Source: Thermoanaerobaculia bacterium (GTDB lineage Bacteria; Acidobacteriota; Thermoanaerobaculia; Multivoradales; J023). Taken from it: a stretch of DNA of 64,000 nucleotides. The stretch covers positions 62,001 to 126,000 of the forward strand of contig JAUIJL010000007.1 in the NCBI GenBank assembly GCA_030431255.1, written 5' to 3'. Shown one piece after another: positions 3,224 to 50,290 of this stretch. The notes below the pieces were generated by a model that was given only the letters and a program-made list of their open reading frames with translations, was not told where the DNA came from and did no database searches. A program made the position numbers and the translations under genes. How positions within the stretch are numbered: position 1 is the first letter of the stretch; each line of letters begins with the position of its first letter.

Positions 3224-3288
3224 CAGCTAAAAACCACCGAGCCGAAAGCCACCGAGCTGGGCCCCTCGGGCACAAAACCTCGAGCAGC

Positions 3289-3322
3289 AAAAAAGACGGG
3301 CTCCGAAGAGTCCGTCTTTTTT
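3289..3322. terminator. Bidirectional intrinsic terminator
   Basis: The hairpin GACGGGCTC-CGAA-GAGTCCGTC (9 pairs, one G-U, tetraloop) is flanked by A6 on the left and T6 on the right. It can end transcripts of the permease (plus) and of rpsN (minus), which converge here. Confidence 0.9.
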
Positions 3323-3403
3323 GGTCAGAGCCCGAATCCCGCGCTGGGATCCCAAGCCCTGGAGGGTGCCGAGAGCCGAAGGCTCAAGGCGCCGAAACGC
3401 TGA

Positions 3404-16080: not shown

Positions 16081-16130
16081 CCTTAGCCCTCACCCCCCTA
16101 ACCCCCCTCTCCCGGGACGGGAGAGGGGGG
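16081..16130 (-). repeat. REP-like palindromic element, copy A
   Basis: Contains a perfect 12-pair hairpin, CCCCCCTCTCCC / GGGAGAGGGGGG (16102-16130, loop GGGAC). On the minus strand it continues into a conserved tail with GGGGGGTGAGGG. The same hairpin plus tail occurs in opposite orientation at 16240-16281. Confidence 0.75.
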
Positions 16131-20906: not shown

Positions 20907-22007
20907 TCACACAATCCGCTCGCGCACCTTGGCCGACACGATGTCCATGGCCCACACCGTGACCGCGATCAGGATCACCAGCGTGCCCACTTCCCCCCAT
21001 GCGCCGAGATCGACCCGCGGCTTGAGGATGTAGCCGATACCACCACCACCGACGAAACCGATGATCGTGGACATGCGCACGTTGATGTCCCAGCGATAGA
21101 TGGTGAAGCTCAGGAACGGCGGGATGATCTGCGGCACGACGCCGTAGCGCAGCACTTGCAGGGTGGAGGCGCCGGTGGCGGTGATCGCTTCCACCGGCCC
21201 GGTGTCGATGGATTCGATTTGCTCCGAGTAGAGCTTGGTGAGCGCGGCCACCGAATGCACCCACAGAGCCAGCACGCCGGCGAAGGGCCCGATGCCGACC
21301 CAGGAGATGAAAATCAGTGCCCACACCAACGGCTCCACGGCGCGGGTCAGGTTCATGACCGTGCGCGCCAGGGTGTAGGACCATCGGGCCACCCAATTGC
21401 CGCGGGTCAGGTTGCGCGCGGCCACGAACGAGAGGGCAAACGCCAAGGGAATGGCGAAGGCCGTGGCCATGAAGGCGAGAAAGATGGTCTGCACCAGGAG
21501 CACCAACCCCTGGTGCAAGACGTCGGCGGACGGATTCATCAACCCGCGCACGATGTCCGCCGCTTTGGAAAATTTGGTCAAGAAAGTCAGCAGCTGGACC
21601 TCGGTGATCAGCCAGCCGGTGAAAAAGGTCAGCTGGATCAAAAGCGCGGTAAACCAACCGCGGGAGGTCTGGGTCCAGGGTAGGAATTCTTCCTCGGGCA
21701 TCACCCCGCGCACCGTGGCGCGCCCCGGAGAGGTGCCCAGGGGCCGATAGAAGAGGTTCCAGAGGGTCGCCAGCACGAAGGCGACGGTCACCAACCAGGG
21801 GTAAGACAGCAGATCGAGGATTTCTTCCGGGGTCAGGAGCAAACCGGTCGGCCCCCGGCGGCCCGAGAAGGCCAGGGCCAGGAACTCGATCATCAACAAC
21901 ACCAAAAGCATGAGAATGGTGTCGAGCATCAATCCTTGAAGCCGGCGCACCCCTTTTTTCCACGGGGTGTTTTGCTGGGCCAAAATACGTTCGCGTGCGG
22001 TGGTCAT
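20907..22007 (-). CDS. phnE: Phosphonate-type ABC transporter permease
   Basis: A 366-residue membrane component of a phosphate/phosphonate-type importer. The binding-protein-dependent transport domain occupies the C-terminal 200 residues, with the EAA-like loop SIDTGPVEAITATGAS and the family stretch IIGFVGGGGIGYIL. The N-terminal 150 residues hold extra membrane segments beyond the usual PhnE length. It is last in a minus-strand operon, 11 bases after phnC. No C-P lyase or phosphonatase is in the window, so the ligand could be phosphonate, phosphite or another oxyanion. Confidence 0.9.
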   Translation of the reverse strand: MTTARERILAQQNTPWKKGVRRLQGLMLDTILMLLVLLMIEFLALAFSGRRGPTGLLLTPEEILDLLSYPWLVTVAFVLATLWNLFYRPLGTSPGRATVRGVMPEEEFLPWTQTSRGWFTALLIQLTFFTGWLITEVQLLTFLTKFSKAADIVRGLMNPSADVLHQGLVLLVQTIFLAFMATAFAIPLAFALSFVAARNLTRGNWVARWSYTLARTVMNLTRAVEPLVWALIFISWVGIGPFAGVLALWVHSVAALTKLYSEQIESIDTGPVEAITATGASTLQVLRYGVVPQIIPPFLSFTIYRWDINVRMSTIIGFVGGGGIGYILKPRVDLGAWGEVGTLVILIAVTVWAMDIVSAKVRERIV

Positions 22008-35114: not shown

Positions 35115-38100
35115 TCAGGGCGCGCAGGCCGAGAAGTCGTCCATCTCCACGGTCAAGGTCTTGGTGCCGTGGTAAGACACCACATTCATGCCCACCAGGG
35201 GTGAAGCCCCGAGATCCACCGCGATGACGCCCTGGGTGCCGCCCGCCGGTCGACGCCAGGTGGTGCCGCCGTCGGTAGAATATTCGACCGTGTAGGTATT
35301 GCCGCTGCGCTCGATCGCCAGCCGCACGGGCGAGCCGGCGCCGAAGAGGTTCGAGCCCAGGGCCACGTCACCCGTGCTGCCGAAACCGGTGCGAGCCCGG
35401 AACTGCAGGGCGGGACCGGAGCCGGCGAAGTCCGGCACCACCTGGACCATGATCCGGGCGTCTAGGGGATCGAGCCCCGCACGGACCATCAGACCGCCCT
35501 TGCGGTAAGCGCCACCCTCATCCTTGGTGAAGCCGTCCACATCGACCTCGGCGCGGAAATCACCCGCCAACGTGCGGTAGACGAAGACCCCGTTGTCGGT
35601 GCCGGCGTAAGCGGTGGTGCCGTTGCCGTCGATCTTCAAAGTGCCGTCGGACTCTTCCACGTAACCTTGGTCCGCGTCGCCGAGGAAAACCGAATCCCAA
35701 GCGCCGTCGAGCACGCCGTCGTCGAAGGAGTCGGTCACGCAGCCTGCCAAGGGACCGCCGGTGGCGACGAAACCGAAGTCCGCGCCGGATCTCACCTGCC
35801 AGGCCGCGAGGGTCATCGCCGCCGACGTGCCCGGACCGTTCGGACCGCTGGTGTTGACGTGTCCGGTCAAGCCGGAGTCGTCCACGGTGAGGGTCACGGC
35901 GCCGGCCGGCACGTTGAGCATGTAGGAGCCGTCGACGGCGGTGACGGTGGAGACTCCGCCCGCGCTGACCGGCACACCCGCCAGACCGGGCTCGCCGGCG
36001 CCGGCGCTGCCGTCACCGTCGAGGTCGTCGAACAATCGGCCGGTGATGAGGGCGCCTCGGGGCCGGCCGCAGCTCATCGCGGTCAGCAGCGAGCGACCCT
36101 CCTGCCGCAGACCCGCGGCGTCGGTGCCGCCGAAGACCTGACCTTCGGTGTACCAAGCCGCGTAGTCCTGGAGCCCTTCCGGCAACACCGGCGGGAAGTC
36201 GACACTGCCGCGGGGCACCATGGAAAAGATGCGCAGATCCCCATGCTGGTCGCGCAGGGCGCGGATCGAATCCATGGTGTCGGCCAAGACTTGGCCGGCA
36301 AAGGTACCGATTTGGGTGTTGTAGTCGCCCATCCAGGAAACCGCTCCCGAGGGCAAGAAGTCGCCGCTACCGTCCTTCAGACCGATGCCAGACACCAGCG
36401 CCTCCTCGTAGGCTGCCGGGCCTTCGCCGTAAATGTCGATGTTGGCCAGGCCGTCGGACGCCCAGATCACCACCATGCCGTGGGACGGATCACCGGAGCC
36501 CTGGAAGAGATCGCGGGCCTTCTCAAATCCCAGAGCCGCCGGGCTGGTGGTTTGGGGATGGTAGGGATCGAGTATCGGTAGGCCGGAGGCGCGCAAGAGG
36601 CCGTCCAGCTCCGCGGGCTCCGTGAAGGCGGATTCCACTTGCGCCGAGCTCAGCATATTGACGCCCGCATCGTCACCGCCCTCCACGCTCAACATGGCGA
36701 CCCGGGTGTCACCGTCGCGCAGGGCCAGACCCGCATTGATCTCCAACAAGCCTTCGATCACCGCGTCGAGCTTGCTCATCTCGCCGTCGATCGGCCGCGC
36801 CATGGAGTCGGAACGATCCACCACATAGAGCACATCCAAGCCCGCGTCGGCATCGCACGGCAGCGGATTGGGCGATGGACGGAATTGGGACGGACGACAG
36901 AGGCCGAAACCGTCGAAAGCTACGGTCATCGGCGTGGACTCGTCGTAGGAGGTAACGGTCGGTCCTACCCACATCTGCTCACCGACCTCGATCACGGTGC
37001 TGCCGCCGGTGCCGCCCAAGGGCTGAATCCAGCTATCGCCGCGGTCGGTGGAGTAGTAGACGGAGAACACATCACCCCGGCGCTGGATGGCCACCCTCAC
37101 GGGCAGCTTGATGCCTGGCACGGTGGAGCCCACCTCGTAGGCCAGGAGGTCGGTGCCCCGGGCGTCGAATTGCAGGGACGGACGAGCCGGCTCACCGGGA
37201 TCCGCGGACGGGTGGTGAGGCACGTATTGCACCATCACCCGAGGCGCGTTCGCCTGGAGACCCGCTCGCACCGTCAAACCGCCCTTTCGGTATTGACCGC
37301 CTTCGTCCACGGGCACGTCGACGATATCCAGCTCGACCCGGAAATCGCCGGTGGTGATCTGGTGTAGGAAAGCCCCGTGATCCGCGGCGTGGTAAGCCTC
37401 GGAGCCGGTTCCGCTGAGCAAAAGATGGCCGTTCGACGCCACCGACGAGCTGCCGTTGCCCAAATCGGCGGCCTGCCAATCGGAGCTCAGCCCAGCGTCG
37501 AATTCTTCTTGGCAGCAGCCGCGTCCACCGGCCACACAGGCGGTGGTCGGCGAGTCGGGCTCGCAGGAATCCACGATGCCGTTGCCGTTTTCGTCCGGCT
37601 CGCCGGGATTCTCCGCGGCAGAGCAGGGATCGGGCTCAGGACCGCTTCCACCGCCGCCACCGCCACCGCCGCCACCGCCACCACCGCCGCCACCACCACC
37701 GCCTCCGCCGCCTCCGCCACCACCACCGCTACCGGTGGGAGGACCGTAGATCCGGAGGTTGTCGATGGCGCCGGCAAAGGAATTGGTGCCGGATTGCAGG
37801 GAGCTGATGCGAATGCGGACGTCGCCGGAGCCGTCACCCACGTAGGTGAATCCCACGGCGGGAGTCAAATCCTGGCCGTTCGGACCGCCGACCCAGGCAC
37901 CGGGGTGGTGGGTGTGGTCGGCCAACACGGAGCCGTCCTCGCGCAGGATCTCGATCACCAACGCGTCGTCGGCCTCCGTCGCCCGGGTGCATTGCGCCCA
38001 AACCGACGGCCCCGCGTCGAAGGAAACGCTGTAGGACTTGCCCGCGTCGTTGGCGCTGACGCCGGTGTCGAGCTCCAGGGCGTTGGGTGCCGTGGTGGAG

Positions 38101-38399
38101 CTACCGGTGTAAAGGTGCAGGGCGTAGTCCGCATCTAGGCCCATATCCAGGTCCACAGCATGGGAGTGATTGACCCCGGAGCCCGTCCAGCCGGGCACGG
38201 TGCCGTCGCCGAATACCTCCAGATTGGTATCGCATTGGCGACCTTGGAGACCGGGGCTATAACCGCCGAAATCTTCCTCAAAAAGCAACACTTGGGCGGA
38301 CACTGGGAGGACACATAAAGACGTGAGGCAAATGACGAAAAACAGGAGGAATGAACGGCCGCAAACCGTTCGGTCGATCTGGCGGATGGGGGTCGGCAT
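35115..38399 (-). CDS. Giant secreted protein with VWA domain, Cna B-like domain, two DUF1349-like domains and polyglycine linker
   Basis: A 1094-residue exported protein. Signal peptide about 1-35 (FLLFFVICLTSLCVLPVSAQ). Residues 37-220 are a beta-sandwich, followed by a run of 27 glycines (225-251) and a short segment with DENGNGIVD that resembles a calcium-binding repeat. A first concanavalin-like/DUF1349-type domain (about 290-505) precedes a VWA domain with MIDAS residues DRSDSM (about 515-735). A Cna B-like unit (DDLDGDGSAGAGEPGLAGVPV) follows, then a second copy of the DUF1349-type domain (about 880-1094). The two copies share YRKGGL-VRAGL-MVQ blocks. Likely an adhesion or surface-matrix protein. 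SD GGAG precedes the start. Confidence 0.85.
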   Translation of the reverse strand: MPTPIRQIDRTVCGRSFLLFFVICLTSLCVLPVSAQVLLFEEDFGGYSPGLQGRQCDTNLEVFGDGTVPGWTGSGVNHSHAVDLDMGLDADYALHLYTGSSTTAPNALELDTGVSANDAGKSYSVSFDAGPSVWAQCTRATEADDALVIEILREDGSVLADHTHHPGAWVGGPNGQDLTPAVGFTYVGDGSGDVRIRISSLQSGTNSFAGAIDNLRIYGPPTGSGGGGGGGGGGGGGGGGGGGGGGGGGGGSGPEPDPCSAAENPGEPDENGNGIVDSCEPDSPTTACVAGGRGCCQEEFDAGLSSDWQAADLGNGSSSVASNGHLLLSGTGSEAYHAADHGAFLHQITTGDFRVELDIVDVPVDEGGQYRKGGLTVRAGLQANAPRVMVQYVPHHPSADPGEPARPSLQFDARGTDLLAYEVGSTVPGIKLPVRVAIQRRGDVFSVYYSTDRGDSWIQPLGGTGGSTVIEVGEQMWVGPTVTSYDESTPMTVAFDGFGLCRPSQFRPSPNPLPCDADAGLDVLYVVDRSDSMARPIDGEMSKLDAVIEGLLEINAGLALRDGDTRVAMLSVEGGDDAGVNMLSSAQVESAFTEPAELDGLLRASGLPILDPYHPQTTSPAALGFEKARDLFQGSGDPSHGMVVIWASDGLANIDIYGEGPAAYEEALVSGIGLKDGSGDFLPSGAVSWMGDYNTQIGTFAGQVLADTMDSIRALRDQHGDLRIFSMVPRGSVDFPPVLPEGLQDYAAWYTEGQVFGGTDAAGLRQEGRSLLTAMSCGRPRGALITGRLFDDLDGDGSAGAGEPGLAGVPVSAGGVSTVTAVDGSYMLNVPAGAVTLTVDDSGLTGHVNTSGPNGPGTSAAMTLAAWQVRSGADFGFVATGGPLAGCVTDSFDDGVLDGAWDSVFLGDADQGYVEESDGTLKIDGNGTTAYAGTDNGVFVYRTLAGDFRAEVDVDGFTKDEGGAYRKGGLMVRAGLDPLDARIMVQVVPDFAGSGPALQFRARTGFGSTGDVALGSNLFGAGSPVRLAIERSGNTYTVEYSTDGGTTWRRPAGGTQGVIAVDLGASPLVGMNVVSYHGTKTLTVEMDDFSACAP
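37647..37727 (-). repeat. Polyglycine-coding trinucleotide tract (27 codons)
   Basis: 27 consecutive glycine codons bounded by serine codons, using GGC, GGT and GGA in mixed order. The mixture argues against simple slippage of one triplet. It forms a flexible linker inside the VWA protein. Confidence 0.95.
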
Positions 38400-38857
38400 C
38401 GAGCTATCTCCAATCGAGCAAATGAGTGAATGTCGTTTTGCTCTTCGCTCACCACCGGAGTCTTGAGTTCCGTGTCATCCGCGGGGCGGATCGTGCGGTC
38501 GGGGGACGGTCGTGAGTCGAGGCGTAGACCCTCCCTTACCGCAAGGAGCGTGCCGACCTGCGCACCTCGATCCATCGTTTCTCGATCACCCCCAGCCTTC
38601 TTCGCGGGGCGCTGCCCCTTCGAGAGGCTTGATCTGACAGATCCAAAGCCCACTAAACCAAGACCGTCGCCGCAACTAGGAAAAACCTCTCGAAACATGT
38701 AATACATCCAGAGATATCAAGAGAGGACGATCTAACTGAGCCGCTCCTGATGCGCGGTTTTCTTCGAAATTCCCTGTTCTGGAGAAAAATGTGGCGGATA
38801 TTCCGGTTTGCAAACCGGAATATCCGCCACATTTTTCTCCACCGCTTTTTTCGCGGT
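38400..38857. other. Intergenic region VWA gene / crotonase gene
   Basis: 458 bases with no supported gene. The part next to 38400 is the leader of the VWA gene; no known riboswitch was recognised in it on either strand. The far end contains a perfect 62-bp palindrome. Confidence 0.5.
38780..38841. repeat. Perfect 62-bp spacerless palindrome
   Basis: 31-base arms meet exactly between 38810 and 38811 with no mismatch; the centre reads CCGGTTTG|CAAACCGG and the arms contain GTGGCGGATATT and its complement. It lies 16 bases beyond the crotonase stop codon. As RNA it would fold into a single very stable hairpin with an inner T5 run, so it may act as a terminator, but its length and perfection exceed what a terminator needs. 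Confidence 0.97.
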
Positions 38858-39715
38858 TTATTGCTTGCGGATTTTCTCAACCGCGGGGATAGGATCCCCG
38901 GAATCCCGTTCCGCCACCGCCTGCTTGAATCCCACCTCTTCCGCCCTCTCCTTGAACCACACGCCTTCGGGGCTGTGCCGGGCGATGCCGTCAAAGAGCG
39001 TCGCCAGGGTTTGGGTGCCGGCCAGCCCCATGTTGTCGTACGCCTGGTTGACCATCATCTTCATCATCATCAGCTGATTCTTGGGCACCCCTTGGATCCG
39101 GCGAGCCAAGGCATCGACGGCGGCGTCGAGCTGATCGAGGGGCACCGCCTGGGAGATCAAACCCATCTCCTGCGCCTCTTTGCCGGTGATCAAATCGCCG
39201 GTGAACAACATTCTCTTGGCTCTCTCCGCACCGAGCCGATACACCCACATGGCCGTGGTCGGGCAACCCCAAACCCGCGACGGCGGATAACCGATTCGGG
39301 CCTGCTCGTTCATGACGATGATGTCGCAGCACAGGGCGATGTCACTGCCGCCGGCCACCGCGTCGCCGTGGATCCGTCCGATGACCGGCTTCGAGCAGCG
39401 CCAAATGGACATGAAGCAACGCGTGCAGTGGCTCATGAAACCGAAATCGACCATGGGGTCCCAAGGCATCTCTTGGATGCCCGGATTCGTGCCGGGCTGC
39501 TCCGCGTAATCCTTCAGGTCGTATCCGCCGCAGAACCCGCGACCGGCTCCCGTCAACACCACGACGTGCACGGAATCGTCGCGCTCGGCGTGGCCGAAGG
39601 CGGCGGCAATGTCGTCCGGCATTCGCTCGCTGATGGCGTTGAATCGCTCCGGTCGATTGAGGGTTACGGTGGCGACCCGCCCCTGGGTTTCGTAAAGCAC
39701 ACTGCCGAATTCCAT
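38858..39715 (-). CDS. Enoyl-CoA hydratase/isomerase (crotonase) family protein
   Basis: A 285-residue cytoplasmic enzyme of the crotonase superfamily. Typical blocks are VATVTLNRPERFNAI, the oxyanion-hole segments GRGFCGGYDLKD and GDAVAGGSDIALCCD, and the trimerisation helix near the C-terminus. The position that is often a catalytic glutamate in hydratases reads PSRVWGCP rather than the usual PE motif, so the reaction may be other than simple hydration. AAAGGA precedes the start. It is the second gene of a minus-strand pair, 30 bases after the 202-residue hypothetical protein gene. Confidence 0.88.
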   Translation of the reverse strand: MEFGSVLYETQGRVATVTLNRPERFNAISERMPDDIAAAFGHAERDDSVHVVVLTGAGRGFCGGYDLKDYAEQPGTNPGIQEMPWDPMVDFGFMSHCTRCFMSIWRCSKPVIGRIHGDAVAGGSDIALCCDIIVMNEQARIGYPPSRVWGCPTTAMWVYRLGAERAKRMLFTGDLITGKEAQEMGLISQAVPLDQLDAAVDALARRIQGVPKNQLMMMKMMVNQAYDNMGLAGTQTLATLFDGIARHSPEGVWFKERAEEVGFKQAVAERDSGDPIPAVEKIRKQ

Positions 39716-50154: not shown

Positions 50155-50250
50155 AGCTGTTTAGGGCAAACCGTGGGTAACCGCGGGACGCAAAGCTACG
50201 GGGCTCCACCTCAGAGAGGTCCTTTGGGCACCCAGCCGGAGCCGGCCGAG
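50155..50250 (+). ncRNA. GEMM-I cyclic di-GMP riboswitch
   Basis: The invariant blocks of the class are present in order: AGGGCAAACC (50163-50172), a six-pair stem CCGTGG/CCGCGG closed by the GNRA loop GTAA (50171-50186), GGGACGCAAAGC (50185-50196), a second arm with the stem-loop ACCTC-AGA-GAGGT, and the closing AGCCGG (50234-50239). The base equivalent to G20 of the Vibrio Vc2 aptamer is G, as expected for c-di-GMP rather than cyclic AMP-GMP sensing. Between it and the gene, CGACG and CGTCG (50261 and 50274) can form a hairpin against the Shine-Dalgarno GGAG, a plausible translational switch. Confidence 0.87.
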
Positions 50251-50290
50251 CCGTCAGCCACGACGAACCCCCCACGTCGGAGAGCCCCCA

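Follow-up and report, generated by a model that had tools for sequence, protein, structure and literature searches.

The window (the whole stretch of 64 kb that was analyzed) contains a perfect palindrome of 62 bp at positions 38780-38841, which we interpret as a Rho-independent (intrinsic) terminator of the adjacent crotonase gene, symmetrical and in principle able to act in both directions. Judged from the sequence, the probability that transcription would end here in this way is about 0.8. The palindrome is exceptional in length, but its function is most likely ordinary and the terminator one of a known kind. A preliminary description of the site had placed three explanations side by side: a bidirectional terminator, a protein-binding cruciform, and two abutted ends of an insertion element left after excision or a circle junction. 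The first was strengthened by the anatomy of the site, its position and the other hairpins of the genome, whereas the insertion-element or circle-junction idea found no support.

Anatomy and genomic setting

The segment is its own reverse complement over 62 of 62 bases, that is, two 31-base arms without mismatch or spacer, and it starts 16 bp beyond the stop codon of the crotonase gene (38860-38858, minus strand). Both its perfect, spacerless nature and its location next to this gene were thus as first described. Symmetry ends at 31 bp on each side, where the next outward bases are C and C. An inverted-repeat search of the window returned the palindrome (arms of 31 nt, 100% identity, 0 nt apart) as the first among 14 listed. 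With local base composition, the number of centers with arms of at least 31 bases expected by chance is 5.4e-14 per 64 kb and 8.6e-12 per 10.19 Mb. The arm has a GC content of 45% (62% in the sampled genome), and the site lies away from the ends of its 370-kb contig.

From the outside inward, the palindrome is composed of five pairs formed by TGGAG (38780-38784) and CTCCA (38837-38841), an A5 tract (38785-38789, plus strand, corresponding to a T tract on the minus strand) standing opposite a T5 tract (38832-38836, plus strand), as expected of a bidirectional terminator, and a 19-bp stem with a 4-nt loop (38790-38831), in which TGCA at 38809-38812 forms the center. The order of tract, stem, loop and tract is therefore found on both strands, and on each of them a T-rich tract comes immediately after a GC-containing RNA hairpin. 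The plus-strand T run consists of only 5 residues and is followed by CTCC. Since the center of an RNA hairpin needs a loop of at least 3 bases and the predicted fold has a UGCA tetraloop, the absence of a spacer means only that the tetraloop is self-complementary. A loop of 4 nt was also the most frequent one in a 1.58-Mb part of our genome survey (8 of 31 strong inverted repeats), and according to PMC13155455, bacterial inverted repeats in general most often have a spacer of 4 bp. The minus-strand RNA of the palindrome folds with a z-score of -10.3 against 200 shuffles, and the fold of the whole palindrome has 29 pairs and -51.2 kcal/mol. A terminator scan detected terminator-like matches at the palindrome on both strands, and these were the sole two matches with 20 pairs in 9 kb, although the scan by itself carries little weight (8 matches in total vs 7.6 in shuffled sequences). 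No Rfam family was found at the site at gathering threshold. Elsewhere in the window, a c-di-GMP-I riboswitch aptamer is located at 50155-50258 on the plus strand (51.2 bits vs a gathering score of 35).

The crotonase gene (enoyl-CoA hydratase/isomerase; 38858-39715, minus strand; Pfam ECH_1, E = 7e-44) is the one whose transcript the terminator would end, and the palindrome lies just downstream of it, where an intrinsic terminator is expected. RNA polymerase leaving this gene on the minus strand would transcribe A5, a stem capped by the UGCA tetraloop, and finally U5, with release expected at the U tract, ahead of the next gene 380 bp further on. This next gene, at 35115-38399, has the same direction and codes for a protein of 1094 aa with a Pfam match to DUF1349; it would be shielded from read-through if the site terminates. 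The protein contains a long glycine run, its DUF1349 match is weak, and a search of its own genome gave 17 matches, the protein itself among them, some in open frames of ~7000 codons. The gene scan revealed no convincing gene in the gap between the two genes, and a 90-aa plus-strand open reading frame located there was rejected as a gene, as it lacks the codon-position pattern of the neighboring genes.

The second, small hairpin previously noted between the palindrome and the stop codon (CCGC-TTTTTTC-GCGG) is indeed present at 38842-38856, and an outer A-T pair extends it to 38841-38857. By sequence and terminator scan, it is not followed by a T run on the minus strand and is thus not terminator-like in the direction of the crotonase gene.

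Comparison with known terminators and other hairpins

For E. coli and Zymomonas, PMC7566282 describes bidirectional terminators where genes converge, and it also mentions A tracts preceding terminators between in-line genes. The palindrome shares with bidirectional intrinsic terminators an A tract, a GC-containing stem, a tetraloop, a T tract, a position after a stop codon, and symmetry. It differs from them in that it pairs perfectly over 31 bp, including both tracts and five further pairs, and in that its flanking genes are arranged in tandem, both on the minus strand, rather than convergently. We therefore classify the site as an intrinsic terminator that is bidirectional in its anatomy only. 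A close parallel is the hairpin just after rrfB (5S rRNA) of E. coli K-12, presumably the rrnB T1 terminator (L182, around position 21760), in which symmetry also runs outward through the T-rich stretch (20-bp arm with one mismatch, loop of 4). It differs from the palindrome in the mismatch, in being shorter, and in a T stretch broken by CG. Within the window itself, another hairpin resembling a bidirectional terminator was observed at 3288-3323 (16-bp arms, one mismatch, A6 and T6 tracts).

To place the palindrome among the hairpins of its own genome, we surveyed a non-random sample of 1,984,972 bases out of 10.19 Mb, with genes predicted by simple codon-usage calls. The sample contained 43 strong inverted repeats, of which 5 were inside predicted genes, 2 were at the edges of stretches, and 36 were between genes. 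The intergenic repeats were distributed over 21 tandem, 14 convergent and 1 divergent gap, as compared with 414 tandem, 123 convergent and 175 divergent gaps in the background (gaps >40 bp). Repeats in divergent gaps were thus few (P = 0.0005) and those in convergent gaps many (P = 0.0017) against this background. In addition, a gene 3' end was no more than 100 bp away for 31 of the 36, and among the 21 tandem repeats, 15 had the 3' end closer than the 5' end. It should be noted that two of the 36 (at window position 16102 and at L061 1546) belong to a dispersed repeat family and are not terminators. The longest perfect arms in the 1.98 Mb were 31 (the palindrome), 21, 21, 20 and 18 bp, and shorter ones followed; the palindrome is the longest member of the terminator-like class in this sample. 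From a geometric fit to the remaining perfect arms, 0.006-0.025 arms of at least 31 bp would be predicted among those of the sample, a figure that is descriptive only because the palindrome was picked for standing out.

Several observations do not favor a terminator. With tandem neighbors, there is no evident gene that the palindrome would end in the reverse direction. Its T run is short, with five residues ahead of a C, and its stem is far beyond the length that termination needs. Conservation gives no support either, as the site is absent from the relatives searched. Among 40 genomes, including its own, only three others had a crotonase match at E <= 1e-60. After the stop codon of the closest crotonase found (G004, 69% identity), the stretch read contained just a repeat with 8-bp arms and no T tract. 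In G003, a repeat of a different sequence with 12-bp arms overlaps the end of the crotonase gene, and in G006 no repeat with arms of at least 8 bp was found near the gene end; the crotonases of these two genomes share just 51% identity with the one next to the palindrome and are possibly not its orthologues. In six other genomes of the family, no convincing match to the intergenic DNA of the site was found (best E = 0.02).

Alternative explanations

It could be that the palindrome acts at the 3' end of the crotonase mRNA without ending it, i.e., that a duplex of ~29 bp protects the message or is cut by RNase III while termination takes place elsewhere. The very stable fold and the short T run would be consistent with such a role. 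However, A and T tracts occupy the terminator position on both sides of the stem. Similar hairpins are located mostly near gene 3' ends, a distribution that would suit stabilization as well. Stabilization or processing could also go together with termination and does not contradict it. As an explanation in place of a terminator, we consider it unlikely.

A function at the DNA level, as a cruciform or a protein-binding palindrome (a regulator operator or an N15-type telomere-resolution site), would account for the perfect symmetry beyond the A/T tracts, which RNA termination does not require. Protelomerase sites are long perfect palindromes, which also fits. However, a search of the genome for the ResT-TelK catalytic family PF16684 gave no match (the same search found matches in 1 of 14 control genomes), and a target site of a ResT/TelK-type protelomerase was rejected on this basis. 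With up to 3 mismatches allowed, no other occurrence of the central 22 bp, or site resembling it, was found in the genome, and the A/T tracts and the position behind a stop codon would be left unexplained. The chances of such a DNA-level site appear slim.

Even less probable is that the palindrome is a scar or junction of a mobile element, with two terminal inverted repeats brought head to head by excision or circle formation. Abutted ends would indeed give a spacerless perfect symmetry, and the arm is richer in AT than the sampled genome. Searching the rest of the genome with one arm, a check proposed in the preliminary description, showed, however, that the arm is single-copy: neither it nor the center has a second occurrence in the 10.19 Mb when up to 3 mismatches are allowed. 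A 26-base part of the arm had no match in 39 relatives and no exact match in viral contigs, phage and plasmid records gave no match at E 0.1, and no direct repeat of 2-12 bases, as a target-site duplication would leave, abuts the flanks. The 17 exact 18-mer matches detected in other genomes extend by just 0-3 bases to the left and 0-1 to the right and thus look like chance matches. As a positive control, an equivalent search was made with the palindrome at window position 16102; it found 24 places in the genome, which shows that repeats can be seen in this way. The latter palindrome (16102-16130, CCCCCCTCTCCCGGGACGGGAGAGGGGGG) is a REP-like dispersed one, with its 24 places counted at up to 3 mismatches, and many of the 12 copies that were read have similar flanks over some tens of bases. 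The 62-bp palindrome resembles REP-like elements in being an intergenic perfect inverted repeat but differs from them in being single-copy, and was not assigned to REP/BIME-type repeats, which are multicopy.

An assembly artefact at a fold-back can practically be set aside: palindromes longer than the k-mer are hard for assemblers, but a fold-back would give long mirrored flanks, whereas here the two flanks are not mirror images beyond 31 bp, an intact gene lies 16 bp away and the site is well within its contig.

The persistence of the palindrome does not demand a separate explanation. In E. coli, inviability takes a palindrome of roughly 150 bp or longer. The genome codes for an SbcD-family protein (above the NCBIfam cut-off), so survival of the palindrome is not explained by the absence of this protein. 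The earlier premise that long perfect palindromes are unstable owing to SbcCD is weak at 62 bp: the in vivo cleavage work, according to the accessible text of PMC4245961, used a perfect palindrome of 460 bp, and the portions of PMC7999016 and PMC3175470 at hand give no length limit. Thus, no special protection need be assumed for a palindrome of 62 bp.

Symmetry past the tracts

The symmetry of the palindrome continues 5 bp past the A/T tracts, and termination does not need these pairs. In the 1.98 Mb there are 16 perfect hairpins of the A4-stem-T4 type (29 if A3/T3 is allowed), and in 5 of the 16, the palindrome included, pairing extends 4-10 pairs past the tracts (P = 8e-9). This pattern was first noticed in the initial 785 kb (4 of 11). 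It is weakly confirmed by the stretches examined later, where the count is 1 of 5 (P = 0.02) for A4 and 1 of 16 (P = 0.07) when A3 is allowed as well. In E. coli stretches (350 kb), an extension of at least 4 was seen in 0 of 6 A4 and 0 of 12 A3 hairpins. As regards relatives, 400 kb of G017 had no A4 hairpin, and 232 kb of G002 had one, with an extension of 1.

The symmetry continues beyond the U tract, into a part that a terminated RNA would not need, and arms of 31 bp exceed those of all other hairpins sampled. For these reasons we infer that the length and perfection of the palindrome may have come about when one arm was copied off the other by template switching during replication. According to PMC8794818, a single event of template switching can give rise to perfect RNA hairpin stems. 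A broader and rather doubtful extension of this idea is that some intrinsic terminators in the lineage were born in one step, by a short inverted copy made in this way, and that the palindrome is a young example. Older products of template switching would be predicted to carry decayed outer arms, but no clear sign of these was found in other hairpins of the genome: for A4 hairpins with an extension below 4, complementarity over the 11 positions past the first mismatch was 21/77, 6/22 and 8/22 in three own-genome sets (35/121 in total), and the expectation from composition is ~0.26. The length of the palindrome could help to show how perfect hairpins arise: symmetry in excess of what termination requires suggests a mutational origin, and given several such sites in the same genome, this origin could be tested by comparing close strains.

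The longest extension of the five, and the closest to the palindrome in its symmetry past the tracts, belongs to a perfect hairpin with 21-bp arms and A4/T4 tracts at L030 17791-17836 (own genome, contig C1), where symmetry continues for 10 pairs beyond the tracts. According to our own gene calls this hairpin sits between divergent genes; it therefore does not fit a terminator, as no gene end there needs one, and it counts against the terminator reading of the 62-bp palindrome.
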